Shown: in pieces, positions 9,591 to 49,493 of the stretch
Numbering within the stretch: the stretch's first letter is position 1
Layout of the letters: every line of letters begins with the position of its first letter
From: Rufibacter sp. XAAS-G3-1
Lineage (GTDB): Bacteria > Bacteroidota > Bacteroidia > Cytophagales > Hymenobacteraceae
Assembly: GCF_013623775.1 (NCBI RefSeq)
Contig: NZ_JABFAM010000008.1
Coordinates: forward strand, 1-64,000
Direction of reading: 5' to 3'
Length of the DNA: 64,000 bases
Notes under the pieces: generated by a model
The model's input: the letters and a program-made list of their open reading frames with translations, nothing else
The model's database searches: none
What the model was told of the DNA's origin: nothing
Program-made: the position numbers and the translations under genes

Positions 9591-9598
9591 CTCGGGTA

Positions 9599-9635
9599 AC
9601 TCCCCTCTCCGAAGGAGAGGGGCCGGGGGTGAGGT
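9599..9635 (+). repeat. Solo CTCCCC/GGTGAGG hairpin element
   Basis: ACTCCCCTCTCC followed by GGAGAGGGG, then CCGGGGGTGAGGT. This is the same hairpin-plus-tail that forms the two ends of the nuclease element inside metH, here as a single intergenic copy. Another solo copy is at 47029-47065. Confidence 0.8.
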
Positions 9636-9639
9636 AATG

Positions 9640-9665
9640 AAAAAGCCTGCACGAGGCAGGCTTTT
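9640..9665 (-). terminator. Intrinsic terminator of the small outer-membrane protein gene
   Basis: On the minus strand AAAAGCCTGC, a short loop and GCAGGCTTTTTC form a perfect hairpin ending in a U tract, 20 bases past the stop codon at 9686. Confidence 0.8.
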
Positions 9666-9685
9666 CAAGTAGGTTCGGGGAAGCA

Positions 9686-26851: not shown

Positions 26852-27205
26852 TTAGGCCAGCAGTACCTCTGCCGGAAAGCCTAGACCCTTATGCAGGGAT
26901 CGGATATGCTGGAGGCTCAGGGGCCGTGACCGGTTGAGCACCTTTGAGACAGTCCCTTTGTCCCCTAAAAATGGTACGAGGTCATTCTGGCTTAAGCCCA
27001 GTACCTCCATTCTTATCTTCAGGTACTCGATAGGGTCAAGGGCTTCCGATGGATAGTTCTCTGCCTCATACTTCACAAGCAGCAGGGTAAGGAGTTCCGC
27101 TTCATCGTACTCCGGTGTTCCTTCATCTGGATCACCTAACTCACGCACCCTTTTAAGTGCGTCTTGGTACTCTTCCTCAGAGTGGATAACTTTTAAATTC
27201 TTCAT
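26852..27205 (-). CDS. higA: HigA-type helix-turn-helix antitoxin
   Basis: 117 residues from ATG 27205 (MKNLKVIHSEEEYQDALKRV). The N-terminal half is the acidic toxin-binding part typical of HigA partners of HigB_toxin proteins (ELLTLLLVKYEAENYP); the C-terminal half is an XRE helix-turn-helix (LKIRMEVLGLSQNDLVPFLGDKGTVSKVLNRSRPLSLQHIRSLHKGL). It represses its operon and neutralises HigB (family knowledge). It is downstream of the toxin with a 78-base gap and is followed by a terminator. Confidence 0.92.
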   Translation of the reverse strand: MKNLKVIHSEEEYQDALKRVRELGDPDEGTPEYDEAELLTLLLVKYEAENYPSEALDPIEYLKIRMEVLGLSQNDLVPFLGDKGTVSKVLNRSRPLSLQHIRSLHKGLGFPAEVLLA

Positions 27206-27283
27206 AACAGCGAGGGCAGACAGACAACAAACAACTTCAAACCAGGAGGGTGACAAGCCCCTCCCTTTATGTAAGACCTTCTA

Positions 27284-27577
27284 TCAGAGGTCTTGGACTT
27301 TTACTTTATCATACTCGGCATGGGTTCCGATCCACAAGACCTGAACTCTTTTCGGCCTGAATAACACTATCGCAACGAGCCTGAAGTCATTAGCCTTGAT
27401 ATTAAAGACAACCTTGTTGTCTACGACCATCTCGGCACTTGGGAAATAATTCCGCAGATCGTTCATATTGTTCCAGTTGGAGTTCTTGGTTGTATAGTAC
27501 CAATCCAGAAGGTATGCTTTTGATGCGGCGTGTTTCTCAAAGTAAGCCTTGATGGTGGGGAAGCTAAGTACGTTCAT
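27284..27577 (-). CDS. higB: HigB-family mRNA interferase toxin
   Basis: 97 residues from ATG 27577 (MNVLSFPTIKAYFEKHAASKAYLLDWYY). It matches the HigB_toxin family: WYYTTKNSNWNNMNDLRNYFPSAE, VVFNIKANDFRLVAIVLF, and the C-terminal VLWIGTHAEYDKVK with the catalytic-region His and Tyr. It cuts mRNA on the ribosome when not bound by HigA. The module lies between the decayed and intact parts of the CRISPR array, so it may have inserted there or helps retain the locus. Confidence 0.9.
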   Translation of the reverse strand: MNVLSFPTIKAYFEKHAASKAYLLDWYYTTKNSNWNNMNDLRNYFPSAEMVVDNKVVFNIKANDFRLVAIVLFRPKRVQVLWIGTHAEYDKVKVQDL

Positions 27578-27739
27578 CTCTGTTACCGTTTGAATTATTG
27601 TACGGCAAAGATAACAGATAGTTGACGGTTCGCCAACCATAACAGGGTGAAAAGTTTCTATTTCGCCAACTCTTATTTGCCCTAAAGAAGTCTATCCCCA
27701 AAACTGCGACATTCAACCCCTTCTGCATTACTGTGTTAT

Positions 27740-27901
27740 ATGGAGAATTTATCAAAGGTGTGCACGATTGAGATCCGCCTCGATGCGGCCCAACGACAGT
27801 TGGCGGATGCTTACCAAAAGCTTCAGGATTTGGGAAAGCAAATCATCTTGATCCGTTTCAATCCTTGTTCTTCTGGAAAAGCTACTGGAAGCGGCTTATG
27901 A
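27740..27901 (+). CDS. Possible gene fragment running into the CRISPR array
   Basis: ATG 27740 opens a frame of 38 protein-like residues (MENLSKVCTIEIRLDAAQ..., amphipathic and coiled-coil-like, ADAYQKLQDLGKQ) that reads into the last repeat and stops at 27901. The part outside the array looks coding, but no family is recognised. It may be a remnant of a gene cut off by the array end, or chance. Confidence 0.25.
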   Translation: MENLSKVCTIEIRLDAAQRQLADAYQKLQDLGKQIILIRFNPCSSGKATGSGL

Positions 27902-33900: not shown

Positions 33901-36900
33901 AAGCTACTGGAAGTGGTATTGATGTTGTTTCAGGAACGGTTGGTGGATCGTTTCAATCCTTGTTCTTCTGGAAAAGCTACTGGAAGTATTCACCAATATT
34001 TTACACATGGAAAACAACACAGGTTTCAATCCTTGTTCTTCTGGAAAAGCTACTGGAAGAGCAACTTGTTGATGAACGAATTATCAATTTGGAATGTTTC
34101 AATCCTTGTTCTTCTGGAAAAGCTACTGGAAGTTTTGCGCGACGCATGGCATAGACCGCTTCAATCTATCGTTTCAATCCTTGTTCTTCTGGAAAAGCTA
34201 CTGGAAGGCGTTGGGCCGTGAGTTTGCGGCTCCGTAGAAGTGGTAGTTTCAATCCTTGTTCTTCTGGAAAAGCTACTGGAAGACGCGCTGCTTATGCCGA
34301 ACGAGGGCGTGATGCCGGGTTTCAATCCTTGTTCTTCTGGAAAAGCTACTGGAAGCTGACCAGGGGTGGGGTGAAACCTACTGAGGCCGCGTTTCAATCC
34401 TTGTTCTTCTGGAAAAGCTACTGGAAGAATACTGCTTACGCCAGGGCCTGTATGCGTGACTGCGTTTCAATCCTTGTTCTTCTGGAAAAGCTACTGGAAG
34501 TGAAGAAACGGCTGAAGTTACTTACGTACCTGAATTGTTTCAATCCTTGTTCTTCTGGAAAAGCTACTGGAAGTATCAAAGTAGAACGAACCCAAACTAG
34601 CCTCTGCGGGTTTCAATCCTTGTTCTTCTGGAAAAGCTACTGGAAGTATAGCAAGTTTACCGGGCGGTAGTCTTGGCGGGAGTTTCAATCCTTGTTCTTC
34701 TGGAAAAGCTACTGGAAGTTAGAAATTCTGCGGTTTTCATTGTGCTGTTTTTAGGTTTCAATCCTTGTTCTTCTGGAAAAGCTACTGGAAGAACGGTAGC
34801 CTTGCCTGGGGAACTCCCTAATTTCGAGTTTCAATCCTTGTTCTTCTGGAAAAGCTACTGGAAGCGCTTCTATTAGCTTCCAATCAAGATCTTCTTTTAA
34901 GTTTCAATCCTTGTTCTTCTGGAAAAGCTACTGGAAGATCTATTACCTTTGATTTTTCGGGCGGCACAACCCTGGTTTCAATCCTTGTTCTTCTGGAAAA
35001 GCTACTGGAAGATGAGGTGATATTCCCGCTTGTGGAGGCATTCCATGGTTTCAATCCTTGTTCTTCTGGAAAAGCTACTGGAAGTCAAACACCCGCAATC
35101 CCCAGTCTACCGGGGCTAGGGTTTCAATCCTTGTTCTTCTGGAAAAGCTACTGGAAGAAATTTTAGAAATGCTTCCTCCCCCTTTTCTGCCTCTTGTTTC
35201 AATCCTTGTTCTTCTGGAAAAGCTACTGGAAGAAGTTCTGCACGTATCTGCTCATAGAAACATTAGTGTTTCAATCCTTGTTCTTCTGGAAAAGCTACTG
35301 GAAGATTTCGACAACCCCGGCACTCTAAGGGTAGGCTATCGTTTCAATCCTTGTTCTTCTGGAAAAGCTACTGGAAGAATAGTTGGGCGCGGGTATGAAC
35401 TACATAAAGCTTAGTTTCAATCCTTGTTCTTCTGGAAAAGCTACTGGAAGTTTTGGAATACGTGAGGGGTATTGTATAATGTCAATGTTTCAATCCTTGT
35501 TCTTCTGGAAAAGCTACTGGAAGTTCCAGCCCGATTGAAGAGCTTGTTGCCAACATGGAGTTTCAATCCTTGTTCTTCTGGAAAAGCTACTGGAAGAAGC
35601 CGCCAAAAAGAAGGCTTTTAAGAAGGTTTTGAGTTTCAATCCTTGTTCTTCTGGAAAAGCTACTGGAAGAGTACTATCTGTACGGCTCTTTGCGCTTTGA
35701 CTGCCGTTTCAATCCTTGTTCTTCTGGAAAAGCTACTGGAAGAAGAATTTGAAACACTTCTAAAAGTAGCCACCAATTGTTTCAATCCTTGTTCTTCTGG
35801 AAAAGCTACTGGAAGTCACAAAAATAGACTTCAACCCAGAGAATGATAAAGAGTTTCAATCCTTGTTCTTCTGGAAAAGCTACTGGAAGAGATTTTATTC
35901 TTACGCGTGTACTTTGCGCTGATAAGTTTCAATCCTTGTTCTTCTGGAAAAGCTACTGGAAGAACCGGAACAGATATTTTGTCCCTGACAAAAGCAGGGT
36001 TTCAATCCTTGTTCTTCTGGAAAAGCTACTGGAAGAAAGTGATTTGCCCTGTTCTTTGGAAATAAGCCTGGGTTTCAATCCTTGTTCTTCTGGAAAAGCT
36101 ACTGGAAGCTTTACGGGATGGTGACAGGTCTTTATACCGGCCAGTTTCAATCCTTGTTCTTCTGGAAAAGCTACTGGAAGCCCCTGGGTTTAGCTTTGAC
36201 AACATTAAGAAAATAAGTGTTTCAATCCTTGTTCTTCTGGAAAAGCTACTGGAAGTCACAGGCTTTGGCGCAAGAAAGCCTGACCATGATGTTTCAATCC
36301 TTGTTCTTCTGGAAAAGCTACTGGAAGAGCCCGGCTAGGTAGCAAGAAACAAATAGATGCCTGGTTTCAATCCTTGTTCTTCTGGAAAAGCTACTGGAAG
36401 GGTTTCGGCATCTTTGCCGGTGTTCCCTATCAGGAGTTTCAATCCTTGTTCTTCTGGAAAAGCTACTGGAAGAACGGTAGCCCATTCGCCTGTAAGACGG
36501 GCAAGGCAGTTTCAATCCTTGTTCTTCTGGAAAAGCTACTGGAAGGAGGCCGGGGCGAAGATACTTAGTTTCATTGGCGGGTTTCAATCCTTGTTCTTCT
36601 GGAAAAGCTACTGGAAGGTAGTCTCACCCGTAATAAGGAAATAAGAAGTATCCCGGTTTCAATCCTTGTTCTTCTGGAAAAGCTACTGGAAGTTGTGCAG
36701 GAAAACGGGCAACGGTTTATCAGGTTGGGTGTTTCAATCCTTGTTCTTCTGGAAAAGCTACTGGAAGCTCAGCATCTACGCCGTGGGCATGGTACAGGTC
36801 ATGGTTTCAATCCTTGTTCTTCTGGAAAAGCTACTGGAAGGGTTCTGCGCCGTGGCGTTGCCAGACGTGTACACATGTTTCAATCCTTGTTCTTCTGGAA

Positions 36901-37352
36901 AAGCTACTGGAAGTGAAGTCGAGTACCGTGCACCGGCATTACAAGTTCAGTTTCAATCCTTGTTCTTCTGGAAAAGCTACTGGAAGATTGGGGCGTTGAT
37001 ATTGATTGGCCGGAAGAGGAAGGTTTCAATCCTTGTTCTTCTGGAAAAGCTACTGGAAGAGTGTCACACAGGCCGTTTATCGGGGGTTCTGCCGTGTTTC
37101 AATCCTTGTTCTTCTGGAAAAGCTACTGGAAGCTTTGGCTCGCTCCACGTAGGCAGCGTGCGCCTTTTTGTTTCAATCCTTGTTCTTCTGGAAAAGCTAC
37201 TGGAAGGTACACCTTCAGGGGGGTATCATATCATTTACCGGAGTTTCAATCCTTGTTCTTCTGGAAAAGCTACTGGAAGATGTTCAGGCTTTCTTCAGCC
37301 AATAAGCTTGAGCCGGTTTCAATCCTTGTTCTTCTGGAAAAGCTACTGGAAG
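27855..37352 (-). CRISPR. Type I-B CRISPR array, about 130 repeats
   Basis: I count 130 copies of a 37-bp repeat (plus strand GTTTCAATCCTTG ... AGCTACTGGAAG) and 129 spacers of about 35-38 bases; the period averages 73 bases. All copies look identical on reading. On the minus strand the repeat ends GGATTGAAAC, the usual 8-nt handle (AUUGAAAC) of type I-B crRNAs, and the leader lies at the right end beside cas4, so transcription is right to left. One spacer is duplicated (31275-31310 and 31348-31383), two spacers overlap by 18 bases (31200-31237 and 35743-35778), and one is a perfect terminator hairpin (30539-30573). The repeat has no stop codon in several frames, which creates long false reading frames. 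Confidence 0.98.
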
Positions 37353-37548
37353 TCGTGGTTATTCGGTAACGGTTGATTTTCAGTTAGATATCTGTTATTT
37401 GTTAAAGCCCAATTTCCTGTTTTACAATATGTCAAGGAGCATAATTTCATACCTTTATACGGTTTTTCCGAATAAATTTCTTTTTGATAATCAATAAGTT
37501 ACACCTTGTTTTTGGGTTGCCAAAAATAAATCTGTATCCGGAAAGGAT
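37353..37548 (-). promoter_or_regulatory. CRISPR leader
   Basis: An AT-rich segment between the newest repeat and the cas4 stop codon. Read on the minus strand it has runs of A and T and a TATTTTTG box (TAnnTTTG type) about 165 bases before the first repeat. Its position next to the adaptation genes and at the end opposite the decayed repeats supports the leader assignment. Confidence 0.8.
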
Positions 37549-38121
37549 CTATTTGATGCAGATATTCCGGTATGTGCAATCTAAACACCTTTTGCGACAC
37601 TTGGTAGCCTTGGGGAAATAGTTTTGGTCAATAATCGTGTATATCTGGTTGGCGCAATGCTCCACCTCCTGTTTGTCTGTAATAGTGATGGGTACTTCTA
37701 TTAGTTTATTCTGGCTCCTGGTGTATACCAAGTACCCGCGGTTTACCTCTTTTCCGAAATTCTTTTCTATGAGCCAAGCATAGCAGTAGAGTTGCGTGCG
37801 GTACGTCTCGTATACTTTGTCTTTGTACTGGGCAAACTTATAATCCAGCGGAGCCATGGTGTCGTCTTGCAATAAAAGCACTTCATCAACGCGACCGCGG
37901 AGCAGATCGTTGGTCAGGTATTGGTCTGCAAATTTCTCCTGTACGCCAATCTTTTTGCGCAGGTAATCTTTGTTGCGCTCCAACTTCAGGTCGTGTACCT
38001 CGCGGCCCCGCATGACTTTGTAGTTCTTCGTCTCGTACTGCGGAATACCCAGCACATACTCAAAGTAGGTGAACCGGGGGCAGTACAGAAATTCAATGAT
38101 ATGAGAAGGAGTCAGGCTCAT
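37549..38121 (-). CDS. cas4: CRISPR-associated exonuclease Cas4
   Basis: 190 residues. The four iron-sulphur cysteines are visible: C14 (EFLYCPRF) and the C-terminal CRKRCLDCTYRNIC. The RecB-like nuclease core has GRVDEVLL near 76 and MAPLDYKFAQYK (Asp and Lys of the active site) near 89-100. Cas4 trims prespacers and helps choose those with the correct PAM. It is the last gene of the operon, 6 bases after cas2, and borders the leader. Confidence 0.95.
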   Translation of the reverse strand: MSLTPSHIIEFLYCPRFTYFEYVLGIPQYETKNYKVMRGREVHDLKLERNKDYLRKKIGVQEKFADQYLTNDLLRGRVDEVLLLQDDTMAPLDYKFAQYKDKVYETYRTQLYCYAWLIEKNFGKEVNRGYLVYTRSQNKLIEVPITITDKQEVEHCANQIYTIIDQNYFPKATKCRKRCLDCTYRNICIK

Positions 38122-38127
38122 AATGGT

Positions 38128-38418
38128 TCAGAAAAACAGGGCTCTTACTTCGTCCGAAATCAAATCCTTGTCAAAGGCTTGCCCCAGAAGTTCTGTCTGC
38201 TGAAGCTCTGTTTTGTTCATCGGGAAGATGTAGACGCTGTCTTCTTCCTCATCAATGTAATCTTCTATCTGCAACCGTAACGTGTCTTTCTCATGGGCAT
38301 TCAGGGAGCCAAGAAACACGGAGAACTGCACCCGGTAAAGCCCCGCCTGCTTACAAAGCTTTGCCACTTTGGTGCGGTTGCGATCGTTCTTGATGTCATA
38401 TAGTACCCAAATAATCAT
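38128..38418 (-). CDS. cas2: CRISPR adaptation protein Cas2
   Basis: 96 residues with the ferredoxin-like fold of Cas2: MIIWVLYDIKNDRNRTKVAKLC (conserved Asp at strand 1), GLYRVQFSVFLGSL and DSVYIFPM. It joins two Cas1 dimers in the integrase complex. Its start overlaps the cas1 stop by 4 bases. Confidence 0.95.
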   Translation of the reverse strand: MIIWVLYDIKNDRNRTKVAKLCKQAGLYRVQFSVFLGSLNAHEKDTLRLQIEDYIDEEEDSVYIFPMNKTELQQTELLGQAFDKDLISDEVRALFF

Positions 38419-39413
38419 GCCTTCTGAATTAAGCTGTTGGCAAACGTATGGGCGTCATACTGGATGGTGTTGCTGCGGGTCTGGTTTTTGCCTTTGTAGC
38501 GGATGGTTTCTTCATCAAAGTATTTGTTGAAGGCGGCCACCAACAGGGCTTTCCCCTCATTGTTGAGCGAGTAACCGTTGGTGATTTGGTCTGAGTGGAT
38601 TTTGTTTACCTTCTTGCCCGAGAATAAACGGAAAACAACTGTCTCGGCATAGATGCGGTAGGGTTCTATGAAATCATATACAAAGCTGAGTTGGTTGTAA
38701 TCATCCCGGTGCAGGAAGCCCAGGTAAGGGTCCAATCCAGCTATGATAAGGGCTTTTTCTATTTTGCTGTACAAGATGCCAAAAGCATAATTCAGGAAAG
38801 CGTTAAATGGGTCTTTGGCCGGGCGGCTGCTCCGGCCACTGAACTGGTGCTCCTTGGTGAGTACGTAACTCAATGTCTCAAAGTAAAGCCTGCCGGCCGT
38901 GCCTTCCAGCCCCCGCAAGGTGTCGGCGATGTCCGCTACGCGCTCCGCCTGTAAAGATGAAATAGAGATTGCCAACGCCTCCAGCCGGGCAGTTTTGTCG
39001 TTCAGGTAATCGGCCTGCGGGGTGCGGTGCTTCTTCAGATCCTGGATAAAGTCCCGCTGGTTTTCTAACTTGGTCAGCAGCCAGGCCTTGGTCCAGTCAA
39101 CTCCGGTCTTGTTCAGGCTGGCCTCCAGTTGGCATTTGCGTATTTTGGTGGTGCTGCCCAACTTGCTATGCCACACCCGCCCCAGCGGGTGGCCGTCTTT
39201 CTCAGTGAATACAATATCCACGTTGTTTAAGATTGCCAGCCTGATGGCATCGGTGCTGAGGGCCGCCCCGGTGGTCATGATAATGCTGGTTACCTTGGAG
39301 GCGGCGAAGTGGTGCTTCTTTATATCATTGGTTTCTTTCTCCCTGATGCGCACCTCAAATAGCTCGTCCTTGATATGCACATAGGTACCGTACGTATTAA
39401 TGTGTAGTTGCAT
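38415..39413 (-). CDS. cas1: CRISPR integrase Cas1 (type I-B)
   Basis: 332 residues. The metal-binding Glu is in GTAGRLYFETLSYVL, and the His and second acidic residue lie in LGFLHRDDYNQLSFVYDFIEPYR. The N-terminal beta domain starts MQLHINTYGTYVHIKDELFEVR. Cas1 with Cas2 inserts new spacers at the leader end. A gap of 185 bases containing a palindrome (39521-39557) separates it from cas6, so the adaptation genes may have an additional promoter. Confidence 0.96.
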   Translation of the reverse strand: MQLHINTYGTYVHIKDELFEVRIREKETNDIKKHHFAASKVTSIIMTTGAALSTDAIRLAILNNVDIVFTEKDGHPLGRVWHSKLGSTTKIRKCQLEASLNKTGVDWTKAWLLTKLENQRDFIQDLKKHRTPQADYLNDKTARLEALAISISSLQAERVADIADTLRGLEGTAGRLYFETLSYVLTKEHQFSGRSSRPAKDPFNAFLNYAFGILYSKIEKALIIAGLDPYLGFLHRDDYNQLSFVYDFIEPYRIYAETVVFRLFSGKKVNKIHSDQITNGYSLNNEGKALLVAAFNKYFDEETIRYKGKNQTRSNTIQYDAHTFANSLIQKA

Positions 39414-39520
39414 AGACTTATTGAAGACAAAAGAAAAACCTGTTTAGATAATTTAGCATTAGCTGCGCTTGCCTTTTCCCTTGTCATTGGCTTAGGCAGC
39501 ATTTTACTAGATGTTTGACT

Positions 39521-39557
39521 GTTTTAGGTCTGTTTTCCGTAAAACTGACTTAAAACA
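39521..39557. repeat. Dispersed palindrome between cas6 and cas1
   Basis: GTTTTAGGTCTGTTTTCCG then AAAACTGACTTAAAACAGC; a member of the 37-bp palindrome family. It could partly terminate transcripts coming from cas6 into cas1. Confidence 0.6.
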
Positions 39558-39598
39558 GCTTTGATAGGTAAGTGCTTCACAAGGGTGGTGGGTAGGTG

Positions 39599-40270
39599 TT
39601 AAACCTTTTTGACCGTCCCAAACCCTCTGGATACTGATTTGCCCAGTCCGGCAAAGTCAGGGAGCAAGGCATTGGTGGTGAAGCCGCCGCTGAAAGCCAG
39701 CATGTGCTGGTCTTTGAAGCGGGTGCTTTTCTCCTGCACCTGCAGGTTTAGCAGAATGCGCTGTTCCTTGGGCAACAGCAGATCAAACGACTTATAAAAC
39801 GCCAGAATGTTACTGATAGCGATGCGCTTCAATTGCTCCTGCCGCTCCTGCACCGACTCCGTTTGCAGGTATCGCCGGTGGTTATCCTGGTTCAGCCCCA
39901 TCCAAAGCGTCTCGTAGCGGTAGTGGTGCAAGTCGCTGTCTACCCCAATGGCCCAGCGTTGGTTCTTGATGTTCTTGCTATAGACTGGGTACACACGCCC
40001 ATCCAACTGCAACTCCTGCACCTTCAGAAACAACGAGGTGAGCAGTTCTGCCCCTTCGTTAATGCCCAGCAGCATGGGCGTTTGGTTTGTTACCTTGTAC
40101 TGCACCAGCGGGTACCGGTAATGGCTCTCGCCGCTCTCCAGGTGGTTGTGCAGCAACGGCGACTGGTCTTTGAACAAGCTGCCGAAATACCCCCGCAGCT
40201 TGTGCGCATCCCGCGTTTTCAGTTGGATTTCTGGGAAGGTGATGGTGGTGGTGTGGAGCGTTTGTTGCAT
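39599..40270 (-). CDS. cas6: CRISPR repeat endoribonuclease Cas6
   Basis: 223 residues with two ferredoxin-like folds and the C-terminal glycine-rich loop GLGKSVSRGFGTVKK that defines Cas6. A catalytic His is likely among His6, His23 and His41-42. It cuts the precursor 8 nt from the repeat end, leaving AUUGAAAC at the 5' end of each crRNA. Base composition is host-like, unlike the AT-rich cas3 and cas8b upstream. Confidence 0.9.
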   Translation of the reverse strand: MQQTLHTTTITFPEIQLKTRDAHKLRGYFGSLFKDQSPLLHNHLESGESHYRYPLVQYKVTNQTPMLLGINEGAELLTSLFLKVQELQLDGRVYPVYSKNIKNQRWAIGVDSDLHHYRYETLWMGLNQDNHRRYLQTESVQERQEQLKRIAISNILAFYKSFDLLLPKEQRILLNLQVQEKSTRFKDQHMLAFSGGFTTNALLPDFAGLGKSVSRGFGTVKKV

Positions 40271-40360
40271 GTTGCCGCTGTGTATGAAATGTTTTAATTG
40301 AAAAAGAGTTTATCTTCCTCCCGTTTTTCAGGATTGGGCAGAATTTGGTCTTCTATCCGA

Positions 40361-42778
40361 TTACAACACATAAGCACCGACTTCTTTATAGCCAATATTT
40401 CGGGTGTAATCATCTTCATCATATTGGTAGTATTGTGACGGGTTATTAGAATATGAGATGTAAAAGCCGAAGCATTGTTCTGAATCAAATAAAATTGATT
40501 TTAAACCATAAGGAATAGGCACATTAACAACATAATCATAGAACACAGCTTTTATTTTTGAGAAAGCGGTTCTCTTTTCTCTAATGTCAAGTGATTCATT
40601 GCTATAAATAGAGATAAATTTCTCCCAAGCTGTTACAGCCTCCTGATTCAATTGTATAAAAACAGATTCTGATTTAGTTTCTTCTATCAGGCTAAAATTT
40701 CCTAGATCTTCAAATTGTAAATTGGTTAAAAATTCAAGTTCTTTTGAATGGTAATTATCAGATTGGGTTTTTACTTCTTTAAAGTAACTCTCAATGAGTT
40801 GAAGATAATTGCACTCATCTATTTCTTTTACCTGTTTCAGAACGTTTTTTGTTTTCTGAATAAGGTCGCTACCGTAAATGAGAGAAGTGGCTCTGGCTAT
40901 CTCCTTTATTTGGTAAAGAAATATTGTTCCTCCCAATATACCCTTTTCATTGTAGCGGTTCGCTCTTCCTGCTGCCTGAATGATGGCGTCGATAGGTGCA
41001 AGAGTTCTGAAAACAGTATCTACGGAAAGGTCAACGCCTGCCTCTATCAATTGTGTGGAAATGATAACCTGCTGCTTGCCCGATTTCTTTTCTTTTATTC
41101 TTTTGATGATATTTTTGCGTTCAAAAGGAGTGATGAGGGTGGATAGATAATAGATTTCCGTTTTGTCTGTTTCAATCATTCTTACCAATTCCTCGAAACA
41201 ATATAAACACTGTTTTTTGGTATTGATAATTACCAGGATGTCTTTTGTGGGATTGTCATTGATGTAGCTGAATACCTCTTCATTAAATGCATCAATGGTA
41301 AGTTCTGTATTTGTTCTATTTACAAGCTTGGTGCGGTTAAAAAACTTGAAGTAATCTTTGTAGGCGGGTATAATTTCCTGAATTTCCTTTCTTCCCACAA
41401 TAACTTTTTCAGGGTTGAAAATGAGCGGCTGAGTGGCCGACATAAAGATAAAATAACAGTTAAAAGTTTCTCCCAAAAACTCAAATACGCTTTTCAGCAA
41501 CTGCCAGTAGTGGTAAGGAATAGTCTGAACCTCATCAAGAATAATAATGGAGTTAACAAGATTTGGAATCTTTAGCAGTTTTGATTTATCATTGGAAAAA
41601 ATAGAATCAATAAGCTGTACGAATGTTGTTACCACCACCTGCGCCTGCCAGGTTTCAATTAGGAACTGACTCTTATCTGGGTCAAACACATCTTCGTTTA
41701 TTTTATAAGACGGTTCTGCCAGGTGGTGGTGCTTGAGTAGCAGGTTCGTGTTTTCAGAATTTATTATCTGCTTGTAAACATCAAAGTTCTGGTCAATGAT
41801 AGATGTAAAAGGAATTGCAACTATCAGTTTAGTATCGGGTGCATCCAAGAGCTTTTTCATTTCCAATGCAACCGCGAAGGAAGTAATAGTCTTGCCTAAA
41901 CCTGTTGGCAAGGTTAAGGAGTAAATGTGCTGGTACGGAGAAAATACTTCTTGCAGGTTATCGATTGCTTCACAATATGCCTGATTCTTCTTCCCGTCAA
42001 GTTCTGTTCTGGCAGTTTCGAATTCTTTTTCCTTCCTGAACCTTTGCACAAGGTTTTCCTCGAGTAGTGCCTTTTCTTGTTGATTTTCTTGAAGTATAAC
42101 ATCAGTCTTGTCAGCAAAGAGAAGGCAGCTATAAAGTAATTGGTGGGCGTAGAAGTAACTTATTTTAGTTTCCGAAGGCACATTCTCGTAATCTCCCCAA
42201 GTAAATTCATCCATGTAAAAATCAAGCATGTCCTTTTCATAGGACTTGGAAATGATGTATTCCTTAAAATTCTGCAATGAATATTTAACAGGAAGCTGAA
42301 TTGCAAAATGAGTAAGAATTTCCTGCACTTCCGCTTCTTGAAAGCTGATTAGTTGCTCCTGCAATTCATCTGATTTGCTGGTAATATCAAATTCATCGAC
42401 AAAATTTTTCAATTTGCCGTGATGCCGTTTTACTCCTGTGAAAACAAAGTGTGCAAATAGTGCTTTTTCAAAATCTGATAAGCTGGTGCTTTTTAAATAA
42501 GCTTTGGCCAATTCTTTAACAAACAAAGCAGAAACGAGTGCGTGGTTTTTTGGGCCAATTTGCTCGTGGTCTGGGCTAAGCAGGTAATGCTGGAAAAATT
42601 TGGTTCCTTTTCCTATGTCATGAAATGCACCGCAGATAAAGGCTAAGTTCTTTAGTGTTTCCTTTAATTCAGTATTTGCAAATACCTGCCGATTATTTTG
42701 GAAGAAAGAGAGGCAACTTTGGGCTACTTCTTCCAAATGCTTAATCAGTGGTTTACCTGGGTGCGAGTAAAGTGTCAT
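40361..42778 (-). CDS. cas3: Cas3 nuclease-helicase (HD plus DExD/H)
   Basis: 805 residues. The N-terminal HD nuclease has His14 and the HD pair in FICGAFHDIGKGTKF (53-54). Helicase motif I is LPTGLGKT at about 290-297, motif II IILDEVQTI at about 413-421, motif III FMSATQP, and motif VI QAAGRANRYN near 635-645. Cascade recruits it to unwind and degrade targets. It overlaps cas5 by 4 bases. The gene is visibly AT-rich compared with the genes outside the locus. Confidence 0.97.
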   Translation of the reverse strand: MTLYSHPGKPLIKHLEEVAQSCLSFFQNNRQVFANTELKETLKNLAFICGAFHDIGKGTKFFQHYLLSPDHEQIGPKNHALVSALFVKELAKAYLKSTSLSDFEKALFAHFVFTGVKRHHGKLKNFVDEFDITSKSDELQEQLISFQEAEVQEILTHFAIQLPVKYSLQNFKEYIISKSYEKDMLDFYMDEFTWGDYENVPSETKISYFYAHQLLYSCLLFADKTDVILQENQQEKALLEENLVQRFRKEKEFETARTELDGKKNQAYCEAIDNLQEVFSPYQHIYSLTLPTGLGKTITSFAVALEMKKLLDAPDTKLIVAIPFTSIIDQNFDVYKQIINSENTNLLLKHHHLAEPSYKINEDVFDPDKSQFLIETWQAQVVVTTFVQLIDSIFSNDKSKLLKIPNLVNSIIILDEVQTIPYHYWQLLKSVFEFLGETFNCYFIFMSATQPLIFNPEKVIVGRKEIQEIIPAYKDYFKFFNRTKLVNRTNTELTIDAFNEEVFSYINDNPTKDILVIINTKKQCLYCFEELVRMIETDKTEIYYLSTLITPFERKNIIKRIKEKKSGKQQVIISTQLIEAGVDLSVDTVFRTLAPIDAIIQAAGRANRYNEKGILGGTIFLYQIKEIARATSLIYGSDLIQKTKNVLKQVKEIDECNYLQLIESYFKEVKTQSDNYHSKELEFLTNLQFEDLGNFSLIEETKSESVFIQLNQEAVTAWEKFISIYSNESLDIREKRTAFSKIKAVFYDYVVNVPIPYGLKSILFDSEQCFGFYISYSNNPSQYYQYDEDDYTRNIGYKEVGAYVL

Positions 42779-43566
42779 AAGAAGGAGATGTTGCCGTATT
42801 GCTGTGCTTTGTAAATGTTGTTTAACTTTGCACGGGTAGTTTTTCCGTTCGTTTCCACCAGTACATCTGCATAGTCGGTTACTATTCGGTCTGCCCGCAT
42901 TTCTATTGGCATAGTGTCTGAAGTATACCTGCCAGCTTCATAATCAAACTGGATAGGGTCGTTTCCTCTGACCTTGGATAAATTTATTGCCGTAACCACA
43001 TCTTCATAATCGCCTGATTCTACTAATTCTGCCTGGCAAGTATCTATAAATGTAAGCTGCGCAGTGAACTGGCTAAGACCTAGATAAGGTGTAAAGTGCG
43101 TTCTGTTTTGCTTTACATTTTCGATTAGTTTCTGGAACAAGCCTTGGTATTCCCAAGAGATGAAAATTCGGAAAGAAGGATTCTTCAGGAGCTCAAACTC
43201 AATCTGGGTTCTTCGGTAAGTGTCTTTTATACTGCCTGTGGCGTCCTTGTCGTTGATGTTGAAGTAATCCCTGAAATTTTTCGTACTTACCAGGTTAAAC
43301 CCAATGTTCGTTTTCTTTACAGGTGCCAGAATCTGTACCGCAATAGATGCGTTTTGTCGGGAAAGTAACTCAGGCAAGGGGATAGCACCTTCCTTATACT
43401 TATTGGGTCTTGTCTCGCGCTCTATTCCAACAATCGCCCCTATCAGACCTGCAATGGCAGGTCGTGTAGGGATAGAGTAGGTAAGGGGAGAAGTAGTGGT
43501 ATTGAACTTTCGGAAATGCCCATACTCACTACTGATGTCAAAGATAAGAAAGTCCTTATAGTTCAT
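42775..43566 (-). CDS. cas5b: Cascade subunit Cas5 (type I-B)
   Basis: 263 residues starting MNYKDFLIFDISSEYGHFRKFNTTTSPLTYSIPTRPAIAGLIGAIV, with the type I-B Cas5 hallmark PTRPAIAGLIGAI near residues 33-45. Cas5 holds the 5' handle of the crRNA. It overlaps cas7 and cas3 on its two sides, so the interference genes are tightly coupled. Confidence 0.95.
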   Translation of the reverse strand: MNYKDFLIFDISSEYGHFRKFNTTTSPLTYSIPTRPAIAGLIGAIVGIERETRPNKYKEGAIPLPELLSRQNASIAVQILAPVKKTNIGFNLVSTKNFRDYFNINDKDATGSIKDTYRRTQIEFELLKNPSFRIFISWEYQGLFQKLIENVKQNRTHFTPYLGLSQFTAQLTFIDTCQAELVESGDYEDVVTAINLSKVRGNDPIQFDYEAGRYTSDTMPIEMRADRIVTDYADVLVETNGKTTRAKLNNIYKAQQYGNISFL

Positions 43567-44479
43567 CGAGATTCAGGATTTGCGCAGCGGGTTTAAATGC
43601 TGTTCCGTTATAGCGCATTATTAGCCTGGAATCTATCTTTAGCTCAACCGACTGAATTTTGTCTTTATGCGCTTTTATCTCTTCCAATACTTTTGTTACA
43701 TCAAGCTCAAAATCGTCTACCTTGCGCAGGTGCATCTCATTTACATCTGGGTGGTGCAAAGACAGTCTCTGGCGTAAGCTTCCAATATAAAAAGGCTCTT
43801 TATAGGTTATGTGCAACAAGAACAAAGGAGCTTGCCCAAACTTGGAGCGAGAGATTAAGTTTTTAGTTCCTTCCCAGATTCCTTCCAGCAGCAGCTCTTT
43901 ATCATCGGCAGACATTAATGAATATTTCGCTGCTTTTTCGTTGATGATACCGTTAAACCCGATGATGGCATAAGGTACTTTGTATTCAGTTCTGAAAGTT
44001 GCCTGCCCTTTTTTATCGCCTGATGCAAATGCTCCTGTACCTTGTTCCGTAATTATTTCTACTTTATTCAGGGAACGCCCCATTTGGAATTGAGTGGGGC
44101 CTGTTAATGTAATAGAGTCATTTTTTAAAGGCAACACTCCCCCGAAAGTTCTTACATCAACACACATGTCGAGTACTTTCTCCTTGCTTTCGCCAAAGGC
44201 GGTAGCGCGGCGTTTACCATCCGAAATATAAGTCTTATCACCATCTTGGTAGGTTGTTTCGCGTACGAAAATATCTTTGCCATTTTCGCCGTTGAAGCCT
44301 TTGTACTCAAACCAGTAATCGCGAATAGTGCGTTTTAAACGAACATCCGACACAATTACGGTGCTGTCCTCGGCATCGTAACGAGGACGATTTTCATTTA
44401 AAGGGTCGCCGTTAGGATTTGCATTTTCGATGTCATACAAGAATAAAATCTCGCTGCGGTTGTTGATTGTTTCTGCCAT
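43556..44479 (-). CDS. cas7: Cascade backbone subunit Cas7/Csh2
   Basis: 307 residues. NRSEILFLYDIENANPNGDPLNENRPRYD at the N-terminus is the Cas7/Csh2 signature, with DVRTFGGVLPL and GPTQFQMGRSLNKVE further on. Several copies form the crRNA backbone of Cascade and displace every sixth guide base. It lies 4 bases after cas8b. Confidence 0.96.
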   Translation of the reverse strand: MAETINNRSEILFLYDIENANPNGDPLNENRPRYDAEDSTVIVSDVRLKRTIRDYWFEYKGFNGENGKDIFVRETTYQDGDKTYISDGKRRATAFGESKEKVLDMCVDVRTFGGVLPLKNDSITLTGPTQFQMGRSLNKVEIITEQGTGAFASGDKKGQATFRTEYKVPYAIIGFNGIINEKAAKYSLMSADDKELLLEGIWEGTKNLISRSKFGQAPLFLLHITYKEPFYIGSLRQRLSLHHPDVNEMHLRKVDDFELDVTKVLEEIKAHKDKIQSVELKIDSRLIMRYNGTAFKPAAQILNLDEL

Positions 44480-44483
44480 GGGT

Positions 44484-46361
44484 TTAGATATTTTCTGATG
44501 TTTCTAATTCTTTTTTAGATTTGAATTTATTGCCAAATTCCAAGCCTGCAACAAAATAGAAAGATAGTTCGTTGTTGGAGATTTTATTCAGGAGGTGGCT
44601 GTTCAGGATAAAGTACTCATCTACAAACTCTCTTAAGTTTCCATAAGCATAGAATCCCTGATATTGGGAGAGCTTACTTAGCGTTTCTATATAAATGCTT
44701 TTAAGAAGGTCAGCGCTTAAATTGTAGCCTCTAAGCTTCTTTTCGAAAGGCGTATTGCTCAGGCTTCTATTCTGAATGTTTAGCAGCAGGCGTACCATTA
44801 TGCCAACAGCGAAAACTCCGACTTTATAATTTTCGTCGAGAAACCCTTTGTTTTGAACGATAAAGGCTTTTAGCTTCTCGAGGTCAAAGCTTTCCTTCTT
44901 TTCTTTTACCTCTGTATTGTCTTTTTCCATAAATATGTATTTGTCGTTAAAACTGATGATGCCTAAGTGCTGGAAGTATTTTAAAGTAAGATGTGCTTTA
45001 AGAATGGTTAAATAGGTATTCTCAACGTAGCCGTCTGAGCTCTGTATTTTGGAATAGTTTTGCCTGATAACCTGCATGAATTTATTAAACAGCACCTCCT
45101 TTGAAAGTGGCTGCCCCAGAAATACCTTCTGAATCAAATTATAAAAATCTTCCTCAAAAAAAGTCTTTAAAATTCCAAAGCTGAACCGTAAGTCGTGAGC
45201 TTCCTTTTTTATTATAAATGCTTTTAGGTATAATGGGCTTGAATTGACTATGGCAGGGATATCAACATACAATTTCCTGAAACGCGAGGGTAATATTTCC
45301 TCAAGTAGTAGCTTTATTTTAATTGCTTTGTTTTTAGGGTCTTCTTCATAAAAAAGCAGATTCAGGTTAAAGAAATTTTTCTCGTTGGCTATCAATTCCC
45401 CAAATCTTTCCTCGCTCCTTTTGATTTGTGAGCCTTTTGATGCTGATTCAAACTTATGTGAAAGAAGCATTTTGATGGCTTTGTCTAAAGCATTTGTATC
45501 TGTAGATAAAATCGTTTTAGGAATAATGTAATAAGACTTTCCGTAAAAGTTGCTGTTTAAATTATTTGTAATGAATGTTTTGCCTAACTCAAATTTTAGT
45601 GAGCAGTCGGTGCATATAGGATAATTTTTCCAATTATTCTTTTGCTCAAAAAAACCACTTACCATCCCAGGTTTGTCTACTGTAGCATACTTAAAAGGAG
45701 ATGCGAAGCCATGTAGCGTATTTTTAATCTGATAGCAGATAGAGCATAAGTTGTTTTTGCCCTCTGATTTTACACTATATTTCTCAGATTTATCTTGTGA
45801 CCCGCTAATAAGAAGTATGTCTTTTATAATATTGAAATCAGCTAAATATTTTTTTTCTCCATCAATCTCAATTATTATAGATAAGCCTGTAGCCAATTTT
45901 TCATCTTTGGATAATGTATTATATGTGTTTGATAATTCTTCTTTTATAAAATTTTTATTTTCTTCAAAGCACACCTGAAAAGCTTTAAATAAAGCTTTTT
46001 CTTCTTTGTAATTTGCTTCTCCTAGTTTTTTAATTAGTTTTTTTAACTGAATATCTTTGATTGTGTTAATCTTGGTCTCAACTTCATTGAGTTTAGTTGT
46101 AAATGTAATATCTCCCCCCCGGGCGGAACCTTTGCGATAAGCAAATTTCAAGAAGTTGGCTTTATTTACCTTTTCTAAATCAATGCCTTTGTATCTACAT
46201 ACATCCGAGTCACCTTCTTTAGAAATGCAAAACACAATGATAGCCATCCCATAATTGCCTTTTTTAGGAAACATGTTTTCAATAAACAGCTGATAAGGTT
46301 CTTTGTCAACTGCGATTTTTTGCTCCAATTCACCTATCTGAGATATCGCTTTATCTTGCAT
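44484..46361 (-). CDS. cas8b: Cascade large subunit Cas8b (Csh1 type)
   Basis: 625 residues, first gene of the operon. A zinc-finger-like pair CSICYQI and CTDCSLKFELG lies near 207-255, as in Csh1 proteins. The C-terminal part is helical (YETLSKLSQYQGFYAYGNLREFVDEYF), like the fused small subunit. Cas8b reads the PAM. It is the most AT-rich gene of the window. The 5' region before its start holds a MITE (46399-46603), then the probable promoter and a degenerate guide element. Confidence 0.9.
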   Translation of the reverse strand: MQDKAISQIGELEQKIAVDKEPYQLFIENMFPKKGNYGMAIIVFCISKEGDSDVCRYKGIDLEKVNKANFLKFAYRKGSARGGDITFTTKLNEVETKINTIKDIQLKKLIKKLGEANYKEEKALFKAFQVCFEENKNFIKEELSNTYNTLSKDEKLATGLSIIIEIDGEKKYLADFNIIKDILLISGSQDKSEKYSVKSEGKNNLCSICYQIKNTLHGFASPFKYATVDKPGMVSGFFEQKNNWKNYPICTDCSLKFELGKTFITNNLNSNFYGKSYYIIPKTILSTDTNALDKAIKMLLSHKFESASKGSQIKRSEERFGELIANEKNFFNLNLLFYEEDPKNKAIKIKLLLEEILPSRFRKLYVDIPAIVNSSPLYLKAFIIKKEAHDLRFSFGILKTFFEEDFYNLIQKVFLGQPLSKEVLFNKFMQVIRQNYSKIQSSDGYVENTYLTILKAHLTLKYFQHLGIISFNDKYIFMEKDNTEVKEKKESFDLEKLKAFIVQNKGFLDENYKVGVFAVGIMVRLLLNIQNRSLSNTPFEKKLRGYNLSADLLKSIYIETLSKLSQYQGFYAYGNLREFVDEYFILNSHLLNKISNNELSFYFVAGLEFGNKFKSKKELETSENI

Positions 46362-46398
46362 GGGCTTTAGTTTGTGCTGTTGATATGCTAATTATTTT

Positions 46399-46603
46399 GA
46401 ACCTGTTTAGAGTTTTTCATGAACCGGCATTTAAAGCAATTCTTCTGGGGCAAGCGTCAACCAGCGCCATCGTTTTTAGGCTACTTTTATGAAAACAGGC
46501 AGAAAACAAGAGGCGGTTATTTGCATACTGGCGCAAGCATCTGCTTGTACCGCCGTTTTCAGGGTGTTTTTAGGAAAACAGGCGCAAAACTCTAAACAGC
46601 TTC
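46399..46603 (+). mobile_element. MITE-B copy 1, in the cas operon 5' region
   Basis: 205 bp with 17 of 18 matching inverted ends (GAACCTGTTTAGAGTTTT and AAAACTCTAAACAGCTTC), TTT on both sides, and two 37-bp-family palindromes inside (46472-46508 and 46553-46590). The whole element is clearly related to the copy at 49819-50020. It lies between the cas8b start codon and the likely promoter, so it is carried in the operon's leader RNA. Confidence 0.85.
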
Positions 46604-46621
46604 TTTGATAATAAGCTAAAG

Positions 46622-46662
46622 ATATGTTTTTCTTCCGAACAAAAATAGTAGTACATTAAAAT
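46622..46662 (-). promoter_or_regulatory. Probable cas promoter overlapping a guide-RNA target site
   Basis: Minus strand TATTTTTG at 46647-46640 fits the TAnnTTTG box, with a TTG-type upstream element about 22 bases earlier. The target match begins at 46656 (ATGTACTACT, then 8 of the next 12 positions) and its 5' flank is TTTTA. Binding of Cascade here would cover the promoter box. Confidence 0.6.
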
Positions 46663-46710
46663 ATTTTTACAATAACAATACTTAACCTTCACTCCTTATT
46701 GTAATGGATA

Positions 46711-46837
46711 CGGTTAAATATTACCCGAGCAAACGAAGTAGTACATGTTTCAATCCTTGCTCTAGTGGAAAACCTGCTCTGCTGGAAGAATGGAAGCGTA
46801 AGTTTACTAAATTCTCCAATAGAATAAGGATTGAAAC
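46711..46837 (-). ncRNA. Candidate CreA/Cor-like guide RNA from degenerate CRISPR repeats
   Basis: Repeat A (46747-46788, minus-strand handle GGATTGAAAC intact, internal changes and a 5-bp insertion) is followed on the minus strand by a pseudo-spacer from 46746 down to about 46711. Repeat B (46801-46837) is a decayed copy in opposite orientation, so the two can pair over GTTTCAATCCTT/AAGGATTGAAAC and beyond. The pseudo-spacer shares positions 1-10, 14-17 and 19-22 with the site at 46656-46635. Two of the four mismatches fall at positions 12 and 18, which type I Cascade leaves unpaired. Known CreA and Cor RNAs use this partial matching to repress without cleavage. Transcription is inferred. 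Confidence 0.6.
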
Positions 46838-46979
46838 GCTATTCATTTCATCAAATCCTGAATTGAACCTGATTCAGACTAAGGGCCGCCTACTCCAAAG
46901 ACCTCGTCGCGTCCGCAGAACCTGCCAGCATCTGTGCCAGCCATGCAAAGTACAACCCATTGCGCCTCACTCAAAAAGG

Positions 46980-47065
46980 CGTTTTAAGCCTCCTTTCCCC
47001 AAACCAGCCCCAAAACGCATCAACCGGAACTCCCCTCTCCACGGGAGAGGGGCTGGGGGTGAGGT
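46980..47065. repeat. Palindrome and solo CTCCCC/GGTGAGG hairpin upstream of purN
   Basis: A 37-bp-family palindrome at 46980-47018 (GTTTTAAGCCTCC ... CAGCCCCAAAACGC) is followed by ACTCCCCTCTCC / GGGAGAGGGG and CTGGGGGTGAGGT at 47029-47065, the same element that bounds the nuclease insertion in metH. Confidence 0.75.
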
Positions 47066-47122
47066 TTCTTTTTTTGCCTCTTTTCCAGAAAATACCCCAG
47101 AAACACTATCTTTGCGCTTCCA

Positions 47123-47752
47123 TTGACAGCACCGGCAGTTTTGGGTACCTCCGCAAAGAAAAAAAACATCGTCATTTTCGCTTCCGGCTCCGGGAGCAAT
47201 GCCCAGCGGCTGCTGGAGCAGTTTGAGCACCACCCGCAGATTCAGGTGGCGGCGCTTTTCTCCAACAACCCCGAGGCCTTTGCCCTGCAACGGGCGCAGA
47301 ACTATGGCGTGCCCACCGCCGTCTTTGACCGGGCCGCTTTGCGGAGCGGAGAGGTGCAGGCGCAGGTGGAAGCCTATAATCCAGATTTGATTGTACTGGC
47401 CGGGTTCCTGTGGTTGTTGCCCGCCGCGTTTGTGCAGGCGTTCCCCCACAAAATCATCAACATCCATCCGTCGTTGTTGCCCAAGTTCGGGGGCAAAGGC
47501 ATGCACGGCCAGCACGTGCACCAGGCGGTCATCAATGCCCAGGAGGCCGAAACGGGCATCACCATCCACTTCGTGAACGAGCATTATGACGAGGGCGCGC
47601 CCATTTACCAGGAGCGCTGCCGCGTGCAACCCGATGATACCTGCGAGACCCTGGCCGCCCGCGTGCTCACGCTGGAGCACCGGCACCTGCCCCGCGTGGT
47701 GGAGGAATTGCTCTCTTCCGGCCAAAACAGCCCCCAAACGCCCGCCGCCTAA
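47123..47752 (+). CDS. purN: Phosphoribosylglycinamide formyltransferase
   Basis: 209 residues. KKNIVIFASGSGSNAQRLLEQ is the phosphate-binding start of PurN; the catalytic Asn-His-Asp set is seen in IINIHPSLLPKFGGKGMHG and in the Asp of HYDEGAPIYQE. It transfers a formyl group from 10-formyl-THF to GAR in purine synthesis. No ATG is available in frame: TTG 47123 or TTG 47141 must serve as start. A TATCTTTG promoter box at 47107-47114 lies directly before, so the message may have almost no leader. purH follows on the same strand. Confidence 0.93.
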   Translation: MTAPAVLGTSAKKKNIVIFASGSGSNAQRLLEQFEHHPQIQVAALFSNNPEAFALQRAQNYGVPTAVFDRAALRSGEVQAQVEAYNPDLIVLAGFLWLLPAAFVQAFPHKIINIHPSLLPKFGGKGMHGQHVHQAVINAQEAETGITIHFVNEHYDEGAPIYQERCRVQPDDTCETLAARVLTLEHRHLPRVVEELLSSGQNSPQTPAA

Positions 47753-47765
47753 CCCAAACCAAAAG

Positions 47766-47828
47766 ATGAAGCGACTGACACGGCCCTTACTGCTGCCCTT
47801 GCGGCAACCAACGTGTCATCTGCGGGCC
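47766..47828 (+). other. Structured hairpin in the purN-purH spacer
   Basis: TGACACG (47776-47782) and CGTGTCA (47812-47818) pair perfectly, enclosing a second hairpin GCTGC/GCGGC. GGCCC inside the outer stem can alternatively pair with GGGCC at 47824-47828, followed by TTTT. This could be an attenuator or weak terminator between the two purine genes. A 58-codon frame (47766-47942) crosses it but looks non-coding. I do not recognise a known riboswitch class. Confidence 0.4.
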
Positions 47829-47963
47829 TTTTCCGGGCTACTTTCTTTGAATTTCCTGTGCCAAACTCAACGCCAGTTCCTGATGAACAAAGTCAAGGAG
47901 CGGGATTTCTGTGTTCGTTTTCAATGGCTTCTTCCTCTCTAACCTACATTTTTCGCTACCTAT

Positions 47964-49493
47964 ATGAATTCCGTTAAAATCAAATCTGCCCTCATCTCAG
48001 TGTACTACAAAGACGGCCTGGAGCCGTTGGTGCGCGAGTTGCAGAAACAAGGCGTGACCTTTTATTCCACCGGTGGTACCCAGACGTTTCTGGAAGGCCT
48101 GGGCGCCGAGGTGGTGGCCGTGGACAGCGTCACGGATTACCCGTCCATTTTTGGCGGGCGCGTGAAAACCCTGCACCCCAAAATCTTCGGGGGAATTCTG
48201 CACCGCCGCGGTCACGAACAAGACCAGCAGGAAGTAGCGCAGTTTCAGATTCCGGCCCTGGATTTGGTGATTGTGGACCTGTACCCGTTCGAGGAAACCG
48301 TGGCGTCCGGCGCCGCAGAAGAAGACGTGATTGAGAAAATCGACATCGGGGGCATTTCCCTCATCCGCGCCGCGGCGAAGAACTTCCAGGATGTGCTCAT
48401 CGTGTCTTCGCGCGAGCAGTACAGTGAGGTGGTAGAGCTGCTGCAAACCAAAGAGGGCAACACCGACTTAGCTGACCGCAAGCGGTTCGCGGCCAAAGCC
48501 TTTGATATTTCCTCGCACTATGACACCCACATCTTCCATTATCTGAGCCAGGAACAGGACTTGGCCCCCGCGTTCAAGCAGAGCCAGCGCCAAAGCCAGA
48601 CCCTGCGTTACGGCGAGAACCCGCACCAAAGCGGCACCTTCTACGGCGATTTAGAAGCCCTTTTTGATAAACTGAACGGAAAAGAGCTGTCTTACAACAA
48701 CCTGGTAGACGTAGATGCCGCCGTTCTTTTAATGGCTGAATTCGCTGATCAACCGGCCGTCGCCATTCTCAAGCACACCAATGCCTGCGGCGTGGCCGTC
48801 GCCGATTCTTTGCACCAGGCCTACGTGAACGCCCTGGCCTGCGACCCAATCTCCGCCTTCGGAGGCGTGATCATCACCAATAAAACCATAGACCTGGCTA
48901 CCGCCGAAGAGCTGAACAAACTGTTCTTCGAGGTACTGATTGCGCCGGAGTTTGACCAAGATGCCCTGGAACTGCTACGGTCTAAGAAAAACCGCATCCT
49001 GCTGCGTCAGAAGCCCGTGCAAATGCCGTCCAAGCTGTTTAAAACCTTGCTGAACGGCGTAATTGAGCAAGACAAAGACCTAGCCGTTGAAACCGCCGCT
49101 GATTTCAAAACCGTGACCCAACGCGGTCCGTCTGCAGAAGAAGTGCAAGGCCTGGAATTCGCCTTGAAGGTTTGTAAGCACACCAAATCCAACACCATTG
49201 TGCTGGCCCGCGGAAACCAGTTGCTCGCCAGCGGTGTGGGCCAAACCTCCCGCGTAGATGCGCTGCGCCAGGCTATTGAAAAAGCCCAGGGCTTCGGGTT
49301 TGATCTGGAGGGGGCTGTCATGGCCTCAGACGCGTTCTTCCCGTTCCCAGACTGCGTAGAGATTGCCGCCGAAGCCGGGATCACCGCCGTGGTGCAGCCC
49401 GGCGGTTCCATCAAAGACCAGGATTCCATCCAGGCCTGCGATGCCCGCAACATGGCCATGGTCATGACCGGCGTGCGTCACTTCAAACATTAA
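47964..49493 (+). CDS. purH: Bifunctional AICAR transformylase/IMP cyclohydrolase
   Basis: 509 residues, the usual length. The N-terminal IMP cyclohydrolase domain has LISVYYKDGLEPLVRELQ, YSTGGTQTFLEG and the SIFGGRVKTLHPKIFGGIL motif. The C-terminal AICAR transformylase has LRYGENPHQSG (catalytic His), NNLVDVDAA, ILKHTNACGVA (catalytic Lys-His) and SDAFFPFPDCVE. It carries out the last two steps to IMP. It follows purN by about 210 bases, with a strong terminator after it. Confidence 0.97.
   Translation: MNSVKIKSALISVYYKDGLEPLVRELQKQGVTFYSTGGTQTFLEGLGAEVVAVDSVTDYPSIFGGRVKTLHPKIFGGILHRRGHEQDQQEVAQFQIPALDLVIVDLYPFEETVASGAAEEDVIEKIDIGGISLIRAAAKNFQDVLIVSSREQYSEVVELLQTKEGNTDLADRKRFAAKAFDISSHYDTHIFHYLSQEQDLAPAFKQSQRQSQTLRYGENPHQSGTFYGDLEALFDKLNGKELSYNNLVDVDAAVLLMAEFADQPAVAILKHTNACGVAVADSLHQAYVNALACDPISAFGGVIITNKTIDLATAEELNKLFFEVLIAPEFDQDALELLRSKKNRILLRQKPVQMPSKLFKTLLNGVIEQDKDLAVETAADFKTVTQRGPSAEEVQGLEFALKVCKHTKSNTIVLARGNQLLASGVGQTSRVDALRQAIEKAQGFGFDLEGAVMASDAFFPFPDCVEIAAEAGITAVVQPGGSIKDQDSIQACDARNMAMVMTGVRHFKH

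Follow-up and report, generated by a model that had tools for sequence, protein, structure and literature searches.

The closest described system is CreR (Liu et al. 2023), a CRISPR RNA (crRNA)-like guide partly complementary to a cas promoter, which two reviews (PMC12737573, PMC13131331) place, in the passages that treat it, in types I-B, I-E and V-A, the former also giving its range as type I and V-A. The creA genes, in the layout described in PMC8501985, consist of two highly degenerate repeats around a pseudo-spacer, and the same account has CreA pairing at positions 1-5 and 7-11 while 6 and 12 stay unpaired. Here, we describe an element of comparable build upstream of cas8b in Rufibacter sp. 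XAAS-G3-1, within a stretch of 64,000 nucleotides (NZ_JABFAM010000008.1, positions 1 to 64,000; hereafter the window). The element is probably a CreR-like mini-CRISPR encoding a cas-regulating RNA, through which Cascade would be guided to silence the cas operon without cutting.

Pseudo-spacer, target site and presumed cas8b promoter

The element begins with repeat A (psiR1; 46747-46788, minus strand), a degenerate CRISPR repeat that scores 44 against a null maximum of 25. Its 3' end, CAAGGATTGAAAC, is intact and the same as in the array repeat, its 5' half is worn, and it carries a 5-nt insertion. The pseudo-spacer (psiS) follows, its first 22 nt at 46725-46746 on the minus strand, and after it comes a degenerate second repeat (psiR2, TCCATTACAATAAGGAGTGAAGG, 46708-46686 on the minus strand) that aligns with the 3' half of the array repeat and turns repeat A into a predicted mini-CRISPR. 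A second repeat is placed after the pseudo-spacer also in the related loci L016 (score 26, null maximum 26) and L022 (26, null maximum 25). Across the 5.3-Mb genome, a degenerate pattern for the 3' half of the repeat, allowing up to 3 mismatches and thus letting more degenerate remnants escape, matched once in forward orientation (repeat B, see below) and 133 times in reverse, compared with 2 matches for the reversed control. We account for the 133 by the 130 repeats of the array, the two trailer repeats and A, whose inclusion follows from its own sequence. Rfam, searched over 37000-48000 at E up to 1, returned nothing at A or B; its matches were the array repeats (CRISPR-DR7) and a chance-level Atu_L6 in a 205-bp repeat of the cas8b leader, all below the gathering score.

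The pseudo-spacer pairs at 18 of 22 positions with a protospacer-like target site on the minus strand (46656-46635), with a perfect 10-nt seed and mismatches at 11, 12, 13 and 18. On the side of the protospacer-adjacent motif (PAM), the site adjoins the flank TTTTA (46657-46661, minus strand). The target site covers TATTTTTG (46647-46640), a 6-of-6 match to TAnnTTTG, which we take to be the Bacteroidota -7 box, and the cas8b promoter and start site are presumed from this motif. Between 46340 and 47130 it is the only perfect TAnnTTTG on the minus strand, the other perfect box being TATCTTTG at 47107 on the plus strand, and a TTG stands at 46672-46670, 22 nt upstream. A scan for sigma-70 promoters and for terminators gave a single candidate of each kind, roughly the number obtained from shuffled sequence. 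The 205-bp repeat (46399-46603, no strand assigned) is a genome-wide sequence resembling a miniature inverted-repeat transposable element, which matches at least 42 times in this genome, where 40 of 422 candidates were scored, and recurs in 11 of the 12 further genomes of the genus that were searched; without it, the box would lie about 70 nt from cas8b. The ends of this repeat are inverted (CTGTTTAGAGTTTT).

None of 400 dinucleotide shuffles of the upstream region reached the score of the match, and the same test gave 0/400 for L016, 0/400 for L022 and, for L043, 2/400 without the TTTA flank and 0 with it. In the 64 kb, the pseudo-spacer of A has a single TTTA-flanked match scoring at least 17, namely the reported site, and neither B nor the two trailer repeats has a TTTA- or TTA-flanked match at that score; with the flank rule dropped, all four repeats obtain some matches, and the next best for A scores 23 versus 24. 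Genome-wide, a pattern combining PAM, seed and pairs 14-17 is matched exactly only at the target site, the next two matches carrying 2 mismatches. When up to 3 mismatches are allowed, this pattern is matched 15 times and its reversed control 20 times. TTTTA is also a plausible PAM side for the array, where two spacers overlap by 18 nt and TACTTTTA precedes one of them; the PAM beside the target is assigned from this one array spacer pair and from the relatives.

The first-pass annotation had placed repeat A, with a kept handle and a pseudo-spacer behind it, had given the 18-of-22 match and its four mismatches, and had noted both the overlap with a promoter box ahead of cas8b and a flank equal to that deduced from two array spacers. 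All of this held when coordinates and pairing were re-checked, the last point resting on one overlapping spacer pair. Neither psiR2 nor the 205-bp repeat had appeared in it.

Recurrence in related cas8 loci

Regions upstream of related cas8 genes, 42 in all, were drawn from a contig scan (20 loci, 15 used) and from partly overlapping searches of 59, 395, 395, 390, 222 and 164 genomes, one further region being added through its small gene. They contain 77 handle-like octamers (ATTGAAAC, at most 1 mismatch), and each was compared with its own region and with the 41 others. TTTA-flanked pairs scoring at least 18 occur within the own region in 10 of the 42 (9 non-redundant, one weak), compared with 8 of 3,157 cross-locus comparisons, 2 of which are the identical L011/L067. 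Under earlier handle rules with the TTTA flank, 4 of 25 handles scored at least 24, the highest of 725 cross-locus scores being 21, and another round gave 5 of 32 handles at that score against a maximum of 21 in 1,280.

The nine non-redundant pairs belong to the window, L016, L022 (Flammeovirgaceae), L073, L011 (Flectobacillus), L014 (Runella), L043, L084 and L013 (Rudanella), the last being the weakest. Their seeds are unrelated, and the pairing pattern is nonetheless shared: positions 1-5 match in 9/9 loci, position 6 in 3, positions 7-11 in 7 to 9, position 12 in 2, positions 13-17 in 6 to 9, position 18 in 2 and positions 19-24 in 1 to 5. Positions 1-5 are thus always paired and 6, 12 and 18 mostly unpaired, as Cascade pairing would predict. 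The comparison of related genomes that had been proposed as a check was thereby run, and in relatives whose seeds are unrelated the match to a TTTA-flanked site within the region upstream of their own cas8 gene is retained, providing comparative evidence for crRNA-like guides on own cas-locus sites in Bacteroidota type I-B. L013 and L066, aligned as neighbours, revealed no conserved element.

What the guides of the relatives face differs from locus to locus. In L011, L043 and L073 the guide matches a site ahead of its own mini-CRISPR, and in L013, L014 and L084 the site is there too, on the opposite strand. L022 is the only relative whose site falls within about 40 nt of the cas8 start. For L016, the site precedes a 94-aa frame (9542-9826) that has, by eye, its own terminator before cas8 and that matches nothing in Pfam or PADLOC. 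The mechanism therefore looks shared with a differing client, the window appearing to be the clearest case in which that client is the cas promoter itself.

A small gene, whose product has two CxxC pairs and a length of about 51 aa, separates mini-CRISPR from cas8 in L014 (9731-9886), L073 (744-899), L043 and L084, in the last two likewise upstream of cas8. Looser relatives are encoded in L013 (9771-9950, 59 aa) and L011 (9611-9760, 49 aa, likeness by eye). At E up to 0.1, a profile built from three of these proteins found matches in 34 of 222 genomes, only four of them strong and three of those four profile members; the fourth, in genome G1082, again has a mini-CRISPR ahead of a cas8b-like gene, which scores below cut-off with the Cas8b models and has cas7 and a Cas5-family gene behind it. 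The small proteins of L011, L013, L014, L016 and L073, scanned with one or both libraries, gave no Pfam match above cut-off and no convincing PADLOC match. Between mini-CRISPR and small gene, some 310-345 nt ahead of cas8, L014, L073 and L084 also share a conserved hairpin; its loop is GGATTCCGAGGCCCGT, shortened by one base in L084, and Rfam gave no match there in L014 and L073. The small Cys-rich gene is a possible CRISPR-repressed gene, and the relatives may point to a family of such mini-proteins. A wider scenario, which we put forward only tentatively, is a Bacteroidota I-B mini-CRISPR family whose ancestral client was a Cys-rich mini-protein of about 50 aa (LLNRP...CHNCG...C..CNG), silenced by Cascade, released when Cascade is lost or inhibited, and acting as a toxin or alarm; the window would then be derived, having lost the mini-protein and redirected its guide to the promoter of cas8b.

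Proposed mechanism and its alternatives

In the proposed mechanism, the mini-CRISPR psiR1-psiS-psiR2 would be transcribed and Cas6b would cut within psiR1, yielding an RNA with the 5' handle AUUGAAAC followed by AUGUACUACU. Cascade (Cas5, Cas7, Cas8b) would load this RNA and bind the TTTTA-flanked site through the 10-nt seed together with pairs 14-17 and 19-22. Seated on the -7 box, it would block transcription of cas8b and the genes behind it, and with pairing incomplete past the seed the site would be spared from Cas3. Since ordinary crRNAs compete with the guide for Cas proteins, an abundance of crRNAs or an inhibition of Cascade would relieve the repression, so that the element could sense the state of its own system.

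Several observations weigh against this reading. Within the window, psiR2 is marginal on its own (score 22, the 95th percentile of shuffles of the region), the mismatches at 11 and 13 fall outside the every-sixth pattern, and no convincing promoter for A was found upstream of cas8b (46340-47130). Among the relatives, 32 of the 42 regions have no qualifying pair, including the closest relative, L010 (58% identity), and L020 has a repeat-like sequence, marginal by score, without a match. Moreover, a clear match to the cas8 promoter is lacking in 7 of the 8 non-redundant relatives, whose matched sites precede either the mini-CRISPR or a different small frame. Separation is weaker without the flank rule, scores of at least 23 then occurring in 5/25 own versus 16/725 cross-locus comparisons; in the 32-handle round the best cross-locus scores become 46 (four times, taken as the identical pair), 30 and 28, and the best own scores 36, 35, 28 and 28. 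The scoring took its form once the first three matches were known, which makes the counts somewhat generous. It exempts positions 6, 12 and 18 from the seed run, yet matches there are counted in the score, so mismatches at these positions are not favoured.

The best-placed alternative is an addiction module like CreTA or CrePA, in which the guided promoter drove or drives a toxin and not cas8b. The relatives lend it some credit, with a small Cys-rich gene between mini-CRISPR and cas8 in L011, L013, L014, L043, L073 and L084 and the 94-aa frame in L016. Known CreT RNAs are, in the account of PMC8501985, very short, a size for which a leader of about 70 nt would in principle have room. Within the window itself, however, no toxin-sized frame lies between promoter and cas8b: minus-strand frames of at least 20 aa in 46388-46692 measure 40, 39 and 21 aa, and the longest begins upstream of the box. 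Outside the 205-bp repeat, the 73 nt of leader between box and cas8b contain no ATG, GTG or TTG, whereas CreT toxins, as PMC8501985 describes them, make use of a mini-frame, and once the repeat is set aside the distance of about 70 nt from box to cas8b start is that of an ordinary leader. We consider such a module unlikely here. Slightly less likely still is that the element is a relic, in which the repeat pair has decayed and its guide has lost its function. The worn 5' half of the repeat with its 5-nt insertion, the mismatches at 11 and 13, and a repeat B for which no target was found would fit decay, but against it stand the undamaged functional 3' end of the repeat, a 10-nt seed without a mismatch, and the recurrence of this pattern at loci with different seeds. 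Finally, a chance match or a duplicated promoter fragment behind the repeat, without guide function, is suggested by the likeness of the pseudo-spacer itself to a weak promoter box (TTCGTTTG) and is very improbable in view of the shuffles, the cross-locus control and the period-6 mismatches.

The wider locus and its known counterparts

Beyond repeat A, a second ectopic repeat, B (46801-46837, plus strand, score 36), lies inverted relative to A and was recovered by the genome-wide repeat pattern. The sequence after it (46838-46869, plus strand) includes a possible second handle, GAATTGAACC, at 46860-46869, a remnant guessed by eye. B was rejected as a second guide, having no flanked site in the window at the threshold applied above. 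Its best site in the genome, C73:52705, lies upstream of a gene read by eye as an extracytoplasmic function (ECF)-type sigma factor and has 1 mismatch to the pattern, a mismatch at seed position 7 and the flank AGTTA; the guide pattern of B matches 28 times genome-wide versus 14 for the reversed control, and this best site was judged to be within chance. The fold across B and A (46842-46747, minus strand) is a long hairpin with a z of -5.2. A regulatory role for that hairpin was likewise rejected, since any inverted repeat pair folds so and evidence for a role was none. The mirrored repeat able to pair with A, which the first-pass annotation had singled out, is thus real, inverted and strongly folding, with no target found in the window.

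The window encodes a complete type I-B cas set on the minus strand, in the order cas8b-cas7-cas5b-cas3-cas6b-cas1-cas2-cas4, followed by the array. cas8b/csh1 (44484-46361) matches TIGR02556 and TIGR02591 above cut-off, and the remaining genes (37549-44479) were assigned by family models, cas6b through Pfam with no NCBIfam match. The array (27855-37352, minus strand) comprises 130 identical 37-nt repeats and 129 spacers of 35-40 nt, two adjacent spacers at 31275-31383 being identical; two trailer repeats lie at 26705 and 26779. Between the main array and these repeats, at 26852-27640, sit a HigB-like toxin gene (PF09907, PADLOC PD-Lambda-2_A) and a neighbouring frame presumed to be its antitoxin, without a Pfam match. 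Among 16 genomes of the genus, the array matched its own genome only, and a phage collection contained no match to the window array (30000-37549) or to the arrays of L013 and L020. Seven viral contigs shared a 22-mer common to two spacers; the full spacers match at 23-26/38 and 25-29/36, and the contigs were discarded as protospacer sources.

Set against the described systems, the window resembles CrePA and CreTA in part and CreR most fully. CrePA, as PMC12737573 presents it, uses a crRNA-like guide to repress a protein gene, which recalls the small-gene arrangement of the relatives; its CreP is typically a KilA-N protein in that account, whereas the Cys-rich proteins of the relatives have 49-59 aa and reach no Pfam cut-off. 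In the window, the gene next to the guided promoter is cas8b and not a protein toxin gene. With CreA of CreTA, insofar as PMC8501985 and PMC9458426 describe it, the window shares the two-repeat layout, pairing at 1-5 and 7-11 beside a PAM, and, by prediction, a type I-B Cascade acting without cleavage. It differs in that no toxin gene was recognised under its target promoter, where cas8b comes next and translated toxins are all that the test covers, and in that the haloarchaeal PAM given there is TTC.

The likeness to CreR is closer. Degenerate repeats lie outside the array beside the cas operon, and a seed-centred partial match meets a cas promoter, assigned by motif, next to a PAM. CreR generally lacks an attached toxin gene, and the window has neither a toxin-sized frame nor, outside the 205-bp repeat, a start codon in the leader, a test that reaches translated toxins only. 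It departs from CreR in its host phylum, in the TTTTA flank and in the inverted repeat B alongside. No report of such units in Bacteroidota was found in the literature searched, which misses most subscription journals, and we make no claim of absence in print. The earlier proposal of a new self-directed guide on the cas promoter of a type I-B Bacteroidota system is supported by the comparative co-variation, but the principle itself had already been published as CreR. Judged by its sequence features, the window is a putative CreR, and it adds a Bacteroidota case to that published principle, an idea not in itself new. The pairing rules across the nine loci are the same as in archaea, and CRISPR self-control becomes testable in Bacteroidota.
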